Below, piece by piece: positions 6,221 to 33,671 of a DNA stretch of 64,000 bases; positions within the stretch are counted from its first letter, which is position 1; each line of letters starts with the position of its first letter. This DNA is from a bacterium (GTDB lineage Bacteria; Bacillota; Bacilli; Lactobacillales; Streptococcaceae), in the NCBI GenBank assembly GCA_905221295.1, contig CAJNCP010000001.1:186001-250000 (forward strand), in the 5' to 3' direction. The notes under the pieces are model-generated. The model was not told the DNA's origin. It did not search any database and was given only the letters and a program-made list of their open reading frames with translations. A program made the position numbers and the translations under genes.

Positions 6221-6304
6221 AGGGATGAAATTCCCTGGATTTCTAAAATCATCCACTGGATAATTTTACCTCCCGTTCGCACTGTGTCAGTGAAATATCA
6301 AAAA
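6221..6304 (+). repeat. Dispersed repeat, copy 2 (about 83 bp)
   Basis: Second copy of the repeat at 2359-2441, in the same orientation, with 9 differences. Its end (CCCG..CGCACTGTGTC) resembles the sequence just before the structured leader of prmA near 32618-32635. A shorter match (CCCGCACTTTTTAAG) is at 5976-5990. The repeat may therefore be a front part of a longer mosaic element. Confidence 0.65.
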
Positions 6305-6338
6305 AATTCTTAATTGAATTTTGGTCTCATTTCTTAGG

Positions 6339-6436
6339 AAAAAGATAAGCTTCCTTGCACTCATCGAGTGCGGCGTCACCTTCCTATTTTTCTACAGAAA
6401 TGTTCGGCAAGCCGAACCGTCCAAAATATCTTGATT
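6339..6436 (+). ncRNA. Structured leader element, copy A (upstream of pnp)
   Basis: Begins with AAAAAGATAA and ends with TATCTTGATT, whose AAGATA and TATCTT can pair and close the structure. Between them are a hairpin GCACTC/GAGTGC (6357-6371), a TTCCTATTTT block at 6381, and an extra perfect hairpin TTCGGC-AA-GCCGAA (6403-6416). The spacing from the first block to TTCCTATTTT is 42 bases, nearly the same as in copies B and C. It may be a cis-regulatory RNA or a repeat family; I do not recognise it. Confidence 0.5.
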
Positions 6437-6462
6437 AATTGAACACGCCTACAACTCTGTGG

Positions 6463-6549
6463 AAAAAAATAAATCTACCTAGGAGCAGTCGCTCCGTCGT
6501 TCGATTTCCTATTTTCCTTTGAGTTGCTTAACGGCTTAGTATCTTGATC
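6463..6549 (+). ncRNA. Structured leader element, copy B (upstream of pnp)
   Basis: Tandem partner of copy A. It has an A-rich start, a hairpin GGAGC-AGTC-GCTCC (6482-6495), TTCCTATTTT at 6506 and an end TATCTTGATC at 6540. First block to TTCCTATTTT is 43 bases, and TTCCTATTTT to the end block is 34 bases (33 in copy C before prmA). It ends 45 bases before the pnp start codon. Function is unknown; position suggests control of pnp expression. Confidence 0.5.
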
Positions 6550-6594
6550 TTTGTAGGCAAGGCGTATAATTTCATCAATCCAAAGGGGATTAAA

Positions 6595-8808
6595 ATGACA
6601 AAACAAGTGTTTCAAACGACTTTTGCGGGTCGTGAGTTAATCGTAGAGACTGGTCAGGTTGCTAAGCAAGCAAATGGCGCAGTTGTCGTGCGTTACGGTG
6701 AGTCAACTGTATTGACTGCGGCCGTTATGTCTAAGAAGATGGCAACTGGGGATTTCTTCCCTCTTCAAGTCAACTACGAAGAAAAAATGTATGCGGCTGG
6801 GAAGTTTCCTGGTGGCTTTATGAAACGTGAAGGACGTCCTTCAACAGATGCGACTTTGACAGCGCGTTTGATTGACCGTCCAATCCGTCCTATGTTTGCG
6901 GAGGGGTTCCGTAATGAAGTCCAAGTCATCAACACAGTGCTTTCTTACGATGAAAATGCCTCTGCTCCAATGGCAGCTATGTTTGGTTCATCATTGGCAC
7001 TTTCTATCTCAGATATTCCGTTTGACGGACCTATTGCTGGGGTACAAGTGGGCTATGTCGACGGCCAAATCATCATCAACCCTAGTCAAGAACAAGCAGA
7101 GCGTTCGCTTCTTGAATTGACAGTAGCTGGGACCAAACACGCTATCAACATGGTTGAGTCTGGTGCCAAAGAATTGTCAGAAGAAATCATGTTGGAAGCT
7201 CTTCTGAAAGGGCATGAAGCTGTTAAAGAATTGATTTCCTTCCAAGAAGAAATCGTTGCTGCGGTCGGTAAGGAAAAAGCAGAAGTGGAATTGCTTCATG
7301 TAGACGCTGACTTGCAGGCTGAAATCATCGCAGCCTACAACAGCGACCTCCAAAAAGCGGTCCAAGTAGAAGAAAAATTGGCTCGTGAAGCTGCAACTCA
7401 AGCAGTTAAAGACCAAGTGACTGCTGTTTACGAAGAAAAATATGCAGACCACGAAGAATTTGACCGTATCATGCGTGATGTGGCTGAAATCTTGGAACAA
7501 ATGGAACACGCTGAAGTGCGCCGTTTGATTACAGAAGATAAGGTACGTCCTGACGGTCGTAAGGTTGATGAAATCCGTCCTTTGGATGCGGTTGTTGACT
7601 TTCTTCCTCGTGTGCACGGTTCAGGTCTCTTTACTCGTGGGCAAACTCAAGCCCTTTCAGTCTTGACCTTGGCTCCGATGGGAGAAACTCAAATCATCGA
7701 TGGTTTGGATCCAGAGTACAAGAAACGCTTTATGCACCACTATAACTTCCCTCAATACTCTGTAGGGGAAACTGGTCGTTATGGTGCACCAGGTCGTCGT
7801 GAAATTGGTCATGGGGCTCTTGGTGAGCGTGCCCTTGCTCAAGTCTTGCCAAGTTTGGAAGAATTTCCATACGCGATCCGCTTGGTAGCAGAAGTCTTAG
7901 AATCAAACGGTTCTTCTTCTCAAGCTTCTATCTGTGCGGGAACGCTTGCCCTTATGGCTGGTGGTGTGCCAATCAAGGCGCCAGTAGCAGGGATTGCTAT
8001 GGGTCTCATCTCAGATGGAAATAACTACACTGTTTTGACAGATATCCAAGGTTTGGAAGATCACTTTGGAGACATGGACTTCAAGGTTGCCGGTACTCGT
8101 GAGGGGATTACAGCTCTTCAAATGGATATCAAGATCCAAGGGATTACTGCTGAAATCTTGACTGAGGCTCTTGCTCAAGCCAAGAAAGCGCGTTTTGAAA
8201 TCCTTGATGTGATTGAAGCAACCATTCCAGAAGTTCGTCCAGAATTGGCTCCAACTGCTCCGAAAATTGATACCATCAAGATTGATGTCGACAAGATCAA
8301 GATTGTCATCGGTAAGGGTGGAGAAACCATCGACAAGATTATCGCTGAAACAGGCGTTAAGATTGATATCGACGAAGAAGGAAATGTGTCCATCTACTCT
8401 AGCGACCAAGATGCCATTAACCGAACCAAAGAAATCATCGCTGGCTTGGTTCGTGAAGCCAAAGTGGATGAAGTTTACCATGCTAAAGTTGTTCGTATCG
8501 AGAAATTCGGTGCCTTTGTCAATCTCTTTGACAAGACAGATGCCCTCGTTCACATCTCAGAAATGGCTTGGACTCGTACCAACCGTGTCGAGGACTTGGT
8601 AGCTATCGGTGATGAAGTCGACGTTAAGGTTATCAAGATTGATGAAAAAGGCCGTGTTGATGCTTCTATGAAGGCTCTTCTTCCTCGTCCACCAAAACCA
8701 GAACACGATGAAAAAGGTGAAAAGTCTGAACGTCCTCACCGTCCACGTCATCACAAGGACCACAAACCTAAGAAAGAAGTTACAGAAACACCAAAAGATT
8801 CAGAATAA
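6595..8808 (+). CDS. pnp: Polyribonucleotide nucleotidyltransferase (PNPase)
   Basis: A 737-residue 3'-5' phosphorolytic exoribonuclease. Domain order: RNase PH-like domain 1, helical domain, RNase PH-like domain 2 ([28 protein letters not shown]), KH domain ([15 protein letters not shown]) and S1 domain ([14 protein letters not shown]...VHISEMAW), then a basic, His-rich tail. It takes part in RNA decay and tRNA 3'-end turnover and acts as a trimer in the cytoplasm. The open frame extends to a TTG at 6544, but AAAGGGG lies 6 bases before the ATG at 6595, which gives the usual family start [10 protein letters not shown]. The 5' region holds two tandem structured elements. cysE follows 15 bases later. 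Confidence 0.97.
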
Positions 8809-27981: not shown

Positions 27982-28054
27982 TGCCCCCTGCAGGGCTCGA
28001 ACCTGCGACCCATAGATTAAGAGTCTACTGCTCTACCAACTGAGCTAAGGAGGC
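27982..28054 (-). tRNA. tRNA-Lys (anticodon CTT)
   Basis: A 73-base cloverleaf: acceptor GCCTCCT/AGGGGGC with discriminator A, D-arm GCTC/GAGC, anticodon stem GTAGA/TCTAT with loop CTCTTAA (anticodon CTT), T-arm GCAGG-TTCGAGC-CCTGC. CCA is not encoded. It lies directly downstream of the 6S RNA gene and ends at its own terminator, so the two may share a transcript. Confidence 0.96.
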
Positions 28055-32109: not shown

Positions 32110-32583
32110 ATGATTCAGATTATCCGAGCAGGAGCAGAGGATTTAGAAACCGTAATTGCAATTCAAAGAGCTAGCTTTAAGGCTGTCTATGAAAAATACC
32201 AAGATGAGTATGATCCTTATCTCGAGGATCGTGAACGAATCAAGTGGAAATTGGTTGAGCGTCCTAATAGCTATTACTACTTTGTGAAAGAAAAGGACGA
32301 AAATATCGGATTTTTACGAGTTCAGACCAATGAAGAATTGACGGAGGCTTGGTTGGGAACGGCAGCGATTTTGCCCCAGTATCAAGGAAAAGGTTATGGT
32401 TCTGAGGGATTGAGATTGCTGGAAAAGGAATTTCCGACGATTAAGCAGTGGGATTTATGTACGGTATTACAGGATGCGGGCATGGTCGCTTTTTATGAGA
32501 AAAATGGTTACCATCAAACTCATATCGAGCCTGAAAAAGAAGGTATGGATATGGTTTACATGAATAAAATGATTGATAAATAG
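32110..32583 (+). CDS. GNAT-family N-acetyltransferase
   Basis: A 157-residue GNAT protein: IQIIRAGAEDLETVIAIQ at the start, acetyl-CoA loop in AAILPQYQGKGYGSEGLRLLE (QGKGYG) and the terminal strand MVAFYEKNGYHQTH. The acceptor is unknown. GGAGG precedes the ATG. It ends the small operon before the structured leader of prmA. Confidence 0.88.
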   Translation: MIQIIRAGAEDLETVIAIQRASFKAVYEKYQDEYDPYLEDRERIKWKLVERPNSYYYFVKEKDENIGFLRVQTNEELTEAWLGTAAILPQYQGKGYGSEGLRLLEKEFPTIKQWDLCTVLQDAGMVAFYEKNGYHQTHIEPEKEGMDMVYMNKMIDK

Positions 32584-32635
32584 AAAGGATGGTTCGGTTA
32601 AATTTCTAAACTGAACCCGCCCTAAACACTGTGCC

Positions 32636-32720
32636 AAAAAGATAAACTTCTCTTAGACACAAGCGTCTTCAGAGAGTTTCCTATTTTGGTTTTGTGTTTT
32701 ACGGGCTTGGTATCTTAATT
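32636..32720 (+). ncRNA. Structured leader element, copy C (directly before prmA)
   Basis: AAAAAGATAAA at 32636, then a stem CTCT-AGAC/GTCT-AGAG, TTCCTATTTT at 32678 (42 bases from the start) and TATCTTAATT at 32711-32720, ending exactly at the prmA ATG. The preceding GAACCCGCCCTAAACACTGTG also resembles the bases before copy B at 6440-6460. No normal ribosome-binding site precedes the prmA start, so the element may itself govern translation. Confidence 0.5.
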
Positions 32721-33671
32721 ATGGAAACATGGCAAGAGTTAAAAGTTACAGTGAAGCGCGAGGGAGAGGAGCTGGTCTCCAATCTCTTGATTGAGTTAGG
32801 GGCGCAAGGTGTTGCGATTGAAGATAGTATGGACTATGTGGGGAATGTCGACCGTTTTGGTGAGATTTTCCCAGAGGTTGAGCAACAAGAAGAAATCATA
32901 GTGACCGCCTACTATCCGAATACGGTTGATGTAGCAGTGGTTGAGGCAGATTTGCAGGCTCGCCTAGCAGAATTGACAGATTTTATGGATTTGGGAGATG
33001 TCAAGATGGGTACAACAGCCTTGGCTGAGGAAGACTGGGCAGACAACTGGAAGAAATATTATGAACCAGCTCGCATCACTCATGATTTGACCATCGTGCC
33101 ATCATGGACAGACTATGAGGCGACTGCGGGAGAAAAGATTATCAAGCTGGATCCAGGCATGGCTTTTGGTACTGGGACGCATCCAACGACCAAGATGAGC
33201 CTCTTCGCCTTGGAGCAGGTCCTTCGTGGGGGGGAAACGGTTTTAGATGTGGGGACTGGATCAGGTGTCCTTTCTATTGCCAGCTCGCTTCTGGGTGCTA
33301 AGGAAATCTTCGCCTATGACTTGGATGATGTGGCAGTTCGGGTGGCTCAGGAAAATATTGAACTTAATCCTGGCATGGAAAACATCCACGTTGCTGCTGG
33401 AGATTTGCTCAAGGGTGTGGAGATTGAGGCAGATGTCATCGTGGCTAATATCTTGGCGGATATTCTCATTCACCTGACAGAGGATGCTTATCGCTTGGTC
33501 AAGAATGAAGGCTACCTGATTATGAGTGGGATTATCAAGGACAAGTGGGATATGGTGCGCGAGTCAGCTGAGTCAGCTGGATTTTTCCTTGAAACTCACA
33601 TGATTCAAGGGGAATGGAATGCCTGTGTCTTTAAGAAAACCAAGGATATTTCTGGTGTGATTGGAGGCTAG
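32721..33671 (+). CDS. prmA: Ribosomal protein L11 methyltransferase
   Basis: A 316-residue S-adenosylmethionine-dependent enzyme that trimethylates ribosomal protein L11. It has an N-terminal substrate-recognition domain ([17 protein letters not shown]), the [11 protein letters not shown] linker, and a SAM-binding domain with [25 protein letters not shown] and VANILADIL. The frame is open to 32694, but the ATG at 32721 gives the family start. A conserved structured element ends at the start codon. rsmE follows immediately, as in other streptococci. Confidence 0.96.

Follow-up and report, generated by a model that had tools for sequence, protein, structure and literature searches.

In T4, RNA structure between the Shine-Dalgarno (SD) sequence and the start codon cuts a distance of 27 nt in gene 25 to 11 nt and one of 22 nt in gene 38 to 5 nt, and destabilising this structure lowers initiation, as described in PMC3014915. 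Among the interspersed repeats described in PMC3049150, BOX is built of boxA, boxB and boxC modules with a mean copy number of 122, and RUP and SPRITE have GC contents of about 27.5% and 28.1% with 110 and 30 copies in Streptococcus pneumoniae, respectively, SPRITE being an 18-bp duplex plus a U tract. According to the same source these repeats are almost absent outside S. pneumoniae/mitis, with BOX relatives in S. suis.

The window analysed here, i.e. the whole 64,000-nt stretch of a streptococcal contig, contains three copies of a structured element, two in tandem upstream of pnp and one at the start of prmA, where it lies between the SD and the AUG. The three copies are genuine members of a dispersed, structured repeat family of Streptococcus.

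Copies in the window and distribution of the family

The original prediction placed the copies at 6339, 6463 and 32636 on the basis of shared sequence blocks. The sites and blocks were confirmed in the sequence, and a covariance model gave 71, 80 and 97 bits for the three copies; it was built from 29 copies including these three, so that the window matches are partly by construction, and the next best match in the window scored 16.9 bits. The starts required revision: in the 29-copy alignment and the covariance model the unit begins with AATTGAAC or AACTGAAC, about 27 nt upstream of each predicted start, and is about 110-125 nt long. The copies and the SD of pnp are located as follows.

6312..6434, plus strand: first of the two pnp copies (copy 1), of the long subtype, which has one more hairpin between P1b' and P1a' (cmsearch, 71.2 bits)
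6437..6547, plus strand: copy 2 upstream of pnp, in tandem, its end 47 nt from the pnp ATG (cmsearch, 80.2 bits)
6582..6589, plus strand: ordinary SD of pnp, AAAGGGGA, 3' of both copies (sequence; ATG 6595-6597)
32609..32718, plus strand: copy 3, the element between the prmA SD and AUG (cmsearch, 97.2 bits)

The longer second spacing in copy 1 was, as predicted, due to the extra hairpin. With up to 98% identity to its S. oralis and S. mitis counterparts, the window prmA protein points to a streptococcus of the mitis group. The pnp copies, which lie between the preceding gene and pnp, belong to the same family and stand outside the split-site class defined below, the ordinary pnp SD being downstream of both; as repeats, they may influence how the upstream transcript ends. 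Their tandem number varies: the window has two, S. pneumoniae 19F three. The idea that the copies contain a promoter for pnp was rejected, as the scan gave one promoter-like site, on the minus strand, with 2.0 expected.

Consistent with the prediction that the element is no recognised riboswitch or leader, no Rfam family scored above gathering at the element: a search of positions 6250-6600 against Rfam release 15, with E-values up to 10, returned four matches, all far below gathering. Among eight element loci searched, the sole gathering-level match was the S10-Clostridia leader (RF03136) at L020:1027-1133, which lies upstream of an element copy in a streptococcal locus and does not overlap it. 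The only gathering-level Rfam match within the window was a tRNA gene at 27982-28054 on the minus strand.

A pattern of the conserved blocks was present in 17 of the 41 genomes searched (the nearest ones, the same genus and other genera), with none among the 16 from outside the genus and none for the reversed control. With a covariance model of four hand-set helices (P1a, P1b, P2 and P3), matches were obtained in 115 of 118 Streptococcus genomes, from one to at least 32 per genome; the three genomes without a match were G005, G006 and G019. Order-wide, 59 of 198 genomes were matched, 27 within the genus and 32 spread over 13 other genera, at weaker scores (best E-value per genome 2.4e-9), of which those with E-values near 0.001-0.01 may be due to chance. 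Matches numbered 17 in S. pneumoniae 19F, 17 in S. mitis 321A, 14 in S. infantis SO and 26 in Streptococcus sp. HSISM1.

Membership in the known pneumococcal families was rejected. RUP and SPRITE differ from the element in copy number (17 in S. pneumoniae 19F), in GC content (0.34-0.46 for the copies of that strain), in sequence and in their helices. For BOX, 17 copies stand against 122, and the best match to a BOX primer sequence in any of the 202 elements covered 14 of 22 bases.

Fold and covariation

The element folds into a long irregular hairpin of helices P1a, P1b, Pc, P2 and P3 with a possible tail pseudoknot. In the prmA copy the parts are located as follows.

32619-32622 with 32703-32706, plus strand: P1a, GCCC:GGGC (helices 1-2 of the covariation test; positions from the sequence)
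32624-32629 with 32694-32699, plus strand: P1b, AAACAC:GTGTTT (two-sided changes at 6/6 pairs)
32634-32639 with 32684-32689, plus strand: Pc, CCAAAA:TTTTGG (absent from the alignment model; two-sided changes at 6/7 pairs)
32640-32643 and 32680-32683, plus strand: conserved internal loop AGAT/CCTA, closed by Pc
32711..32716, plus strand: conserved 3' tail TATCTT (sequence; prmA ATG 32721-32723)

That the fold is kept by compensatory changes was borne out in an alignment of 59 matches, drawn from the window and four streptococcal genomes. In this alignment 87.3% of the cells were paired, and changes on both sides were found at 27 of the 32 pairs, in 410 cells as compared with 131.9 +/- 11.2 in shuffles. 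The covariation score was 0.528, against 0.164 +/- 0.009 when shuffled and at most 0.144 when the partners were slid. Strong covariation resided in P1a, P1b and Pc, with 92-97% of cells paired. The alignment had been fitted to P1a, P1b, P2 and P3, which favours those helices; Pc was outside the fitted model, yet 94% of its cells were paired. The stems named in the original prediction (GCACTC/GAGTGC, GGAGC/GCTCC and AGAC/GTCT) do pair, but they correspond to the apical helix P3, which had the weakest support (69% of cells paired), and the helices with strong covariation were not listed in it.

An internal loop, AGAU opposite CCUA, is conserved between Pc and P2, and the strands flanking it, together with the tail, rank among the most conserved parts of the element. 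The predicted pairing of AAGATA with TATCTT was retained in part: as a tail pseudoknot, AGAUA:UAUCU, it was paired in 87% of cells, but changed on both sides at one of five pairs, and it is thus plausible but weakly supported. Folding energies of the single window copies were unexceptional (z -1.5, -1.2 and -0.05), so the case for the fold is based on comparison and not on stability.

At the split sites described below, G-U cells outnumbered A-C cells by 47 to 17, as is expected of RNA made from that strand; the other copies did not show this (44 to 111). The bias weakens once similar copies are removed, being 33 to 14 at a 90% similarity filter (p 0.008), 21 to 11 at 80% (p 0.11) and 14 to 3 at 70% (p 0.013). 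As 149 of the 202 matches lie outside split sites, maintenance of the fold probably has a further cause as well.

Split ribosome-binding sites

Genomic settings were compared in the alignment above together with a larger set of 151 matches, 150 of them aligned, from 86 loci hand-picked among 124 (L001-L094, L175-L204), most overlapping loci being left out. From 209 aligned matches, seven with identical surroundings were dropped, orthologous copies being kept, and the 202 non-identical matches were sorted by a mechanical frame rule according to what comes after the tail. In 53 start-adjacent copies the ATG of a long frame lay 0-6 nt past the tail, which leaves no room for an SD there. In 22 stop-adjacent copies, which are antisense, the stop codon of a convergent frame lay 1-4 nt past the tail; the genes concerned include rpsO, rpsG, rpsH and rplS, and in at least one case (L183) the frame is probably spurious. 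Like the pnp copies, these belong to the same family in another arrangement, and both kinds may function in mRNA 3' ends or as spacers, or have no role. The remaining 127 matches form one mixed class; among those inspected were tandem arrays and copies that precede genes having an SD of their own, such as the window pnp. The expectation in the original prediction that copies would be tied to gene starts thus held for 53 of the 202 matches, and the other 149 were not directly before a start codon.

Upstream of the element, at most 50 nt away, GAAAGG was present in 52 of the 53 start-adjacent copies, the remaining one having GGAAGGAG, as compared with none of the 22 stop-adjacent and 6 of the 127 remaining copies (together 6/149). 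The classes had been sorted by the downstream side only, so this result is independent of the sorting. GAAAGG is complementary to CCTCCTTTCT, the 3' end of the 16S gene in loci of two related genomes. At the start-adjacent copies the strong SD thus stands at a distance from the AUG, with none close to it, which is the arrangement of T4 genes 25 and 38. For prmA, the original prediction gave the position of the copy correctly, but missed that it separates the SD from the AUG:

32582..32589, plus strand: SD of prmA, AGAAAGGA (sequence; ATG 131 nt further on)
32591..32617, plus strand: hairpin H0, GGTTCGGTT/AACTGAACC, which includes the 5' end of the element (9-pair helix)

GAAAGG adjoined the element directly in 21 copies and was 16-30 nt from it in 31 copies, in which the extra stretch pairs with the 5' end of the element as hairpin H0. 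The longest helix of H0 averaged 8.4 pairs, against 4.9 with shuffled and 6.5 with swapped upstream pieces, values which neither control attained (0/1000 each; 29 distinct copies, split sites only).

In the sample, 14 genes had split sites: dnaJ, prmA, deoD, parC, carB, purB, era, uvrA, alaS, prfA, purE, a pyruvate-dehydrogenase-type E2, an E1 beta, and the gene of L221, which had no NCBIfam match at 1e-20. Names were assigned by NCBIfam from the complete protein for prmA and from pieces no longer than 200 residues for the others, and several scores are therefore below the full-length cut-off. In S. pneumoniae 19F, 5 of the 17 copies were at split sites, in front of dnaJ, prmA, parC, carB and deoD. 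The covariance-model search that had been proposed for streptococcal genomes returned many matches with covarying pairs; the suggested link to RNA and the ribosome was not supported, since the genes after start-adjacent copies are mixed, and a ribosomal or RNA-gene regulon was rejected. A leader peptide was likewise rejected: TTG occurred near the element start in 32 split-site copies, with a frame of 4 codons in 21 and of 8-35 codons in 11.

Occupied and empty sites were compared for two genes. Among 80 named prmA loci, 51 carried the element, with the model match ending 2 nt short of the ATG, and 29 did not. GAAAGGA was found at -150 to -100 in all 51 loci with the element and in none of the 29 without it. 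SD-like letters at -20 to -4 were found in one of the 51, and a near SD was present in 26 of the 29. For parC, 40 genomes were hand-chosen from the 118, lower-scoring ones being favoured. The 20 loci with the element or a remnant all had GAAAGG at -61 to -182, and one of them had near SD-like letters; of the 20 element-free loci, 12 had near SD-like letters and 8 had none, so that at parC the lack of a near SD does not distinguish the loci that carry the element. These eight were L297, L298, L321 and five with only weak purine stretches. Where the element is absent, most of the prmA and many of the parC orthologues have ordinary SD spacing. By eye, L297 (G019) and L298 (G012) had a distant GAAAGG and another apparent structured spacer before the AUG, and L300 (G072), counted as having a near SD, also had GAAAGG at -33 plus an apparent hairpin. 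These spacers appear unrelated to the element, and split sites may have more than one origin. Also by eye, the parC remnant L329 had lost nearly all of its inside and retained the SD, H0, P1a, the tail and the AUG, and P2/P3 were lost in L316 and L330.

The chain distance from SD to AUG was 109-145 nt (mean 128) for the 21 distinct 9-mers at split-site starts. For the folding test a single copy was taken for each start 9-mer, which gave 21 of the 53 copies, with 20 mononucleotide shuffles each; several of the 9-mers represent the same gene in different species. In the predicted ensembles the shortest path from SD to AUG took a mean of 11.5 steps, as compared with 18.2 when the spacer was shuffled (p 5e-6), and it was longer than in the shuffles at 2 of the 21 starts (L072 and L091). 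The AUG was predicted to be paired less often than in the shuffled spacers (0.44 versus 0.60, p 0.013), and the SD was not clearly freer across the 21 starts (p 0.07). Where the SD touches the element and H0 is absent, a hand count gave 20-26 nt outside helices between SD and AUG, which remain unpaired unless the tail pseudoknot forms.

We consider it probable, on these predicted folds and comparisons, that the covarying hairpin of the prmA copy, a member of a Streptococcus-wide family, holds the distant SD and the AUG within reach of one initiating ribosome. The 30S subunit would then use the distant SD, and the fold would stand in for the normal spacer, joining its two ends so that the gene stays translatable. 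A wider reading is unlikely, namely that the element is a portable RNA bridge, a spreading repeat settling in ribosome-binding sites and preserving gene function by folding SD and AUG onto each other, whose shared AGAU/CCUA loop ties the translation of parC, dnaJ, alaS, era, prfA and others to one folding state or bound factor.

Origin, alternative explanations and known systems

Near-identical units on different contigs of one genome (G296, L335-L351), tandem arrays and occurrence in both orientations indicate a spreading repeat. Copies also recur in equally spaced sets, five in G068 and four in G015; the two sets inspected (L240 and L294) adjoin the end of the 16S gene, and the copies at 1980-2089, 2225-2346, 2358-2484 and 5612-5721 of L240 (G068), as well as those of L294 (G015), are next to or inside clusters of rRNA genes. 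In G034, from another family of the order, all 33 matches were on one strand, and the seven regions inspected (L275-L281) held tandem arrays with as many as eight units of 121 nt. These arrays follow the end of a gene on the other strand and start at its stop codon or close to it. The separators between these units (TTAAACC, TTAAAAT) resemble, by eye, the gene end at the array border, in the manner of a target duplication. No clear terminal inverted repeats of the MITE type were seen by eye. Plasmid carriage was rejected, as two distant searches, one of them by blast with a G247 copy, gave no plasmid match. The split-site copies would have been domesticated from such a spreading repeat.

The same signs of spread would also suit a selfish hairpin, whose fold is needed only for the repeat to move, in the form of single-stranded DNA or RNA, and whose position between SD and AUG reflects a target preference that the host tolerates by SD-independent initiation; in 75 of the 202 matches the 3' end does adjoin a start or stop codon. 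We regard this as improbable, because the distant GAAAGG is present in all 51 prmA and all 20 parC loci with the element, H0 at split sites shows better pairing to the element end found at the same locus than to ends taken from elsewhere, and the G-U/A-C bias is seen at split sites. A cis-regulatory RNA, in which a single ligand or factor bound by the AGAU/CCUA loop would switch a scattered regulon at the level of translation, is about equally improbable: the strong conservation of the loop-flanking strands and the tail, and the copies directly before the start codons of many genes, speak in its favour, but the loop is shared by tandem arrays, by some of the copies in rRNA spacers and by the antisense copies beside stop codons, the downstream genes have no obvious common pathway, and the parC remnant L329 kept its split site and lost the loop.

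For copies outside split sites, a role as transcription terminator or stabiliser of mRNA ends (A-tract, hairpin and U-tract when read in either direction), which has been suggested for other intergenic palindromes, is conceivable, though we would not favour it. The 22 copies next to convergent stop codons, e.g. of rpsO, rpsG, rpsH and rplS, and the G034 arrays after stop codons are consistent with it; against it, split-site copies need read-through for expression of their gene, and the terminator scan of the pnp region gave a single site, on the minus strand, with 0.4 expected.

If the bridging of SD and AUG by the element is true, the rule of short SD-AUG spacing fails for a set of core streptococcal genes (parC, dnaJ, alaS, era, prfA, prmA and others), the starts of such genes may be misjudged by gene finders, and a repeat would be shown to have become part of a ribosome-binding site. 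The orthologues with and without the bridge offer a natural experiment on how far the ribosome tolerates a folded spacer.

Neither the family nor any repeat between SD and AUG is described in the available text of PMC2267715, PMC3014915, PMC11109978, PMC8632094, PMC4448216, PMC3733652, PMC4960207 and PMC3049150. Both are likely new to the literature, as represented mostly by open-access main texts, and the supplement of PMC11109978 may list streptococcal repeats. With BOX, RUP and SPRITE of S. pneumoniae, as described in PMC3049150, the element shares the character of a small, interspersed, structured intergenic repeat of tens of copies, but its range of 115 of 118 streptococcal genomes is unlike their near limitation to S. 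pneumoniae/mitis. EFAR of the enterococci, named in PMC3733652, is likewise a palindromic intergenic repeat of the same order. MRSC-65-2 and its kin resemble the element as covarying long hairpins of many copies, oriented freely with respect to genes, and differ from it by a UYCCGG repeat and, in some instances, a transposase gene nearby, as reported in PMC11109978.

By analogy, the split-site copies would represent the arrangement of T4 genes 25 and 38 in the form of a repeat family. In both, the SD and AUG are too distant, and an intervening RNA helix restores a working distance in T4 (PMC3014915), as is predicted here. The split site of T4 gene 25 is conserved among close relatives, according to the same source. 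The T4 cases span 22 or 27 nt in single genes (PMC3014915), whereas the streptococcal sites span 109-145 nt and belong to a repeat family found at 14 genes in the sample. The streptococcal element further differs from the T4 structures by its conserved internal loop and, in many cases, an additional hairpin.
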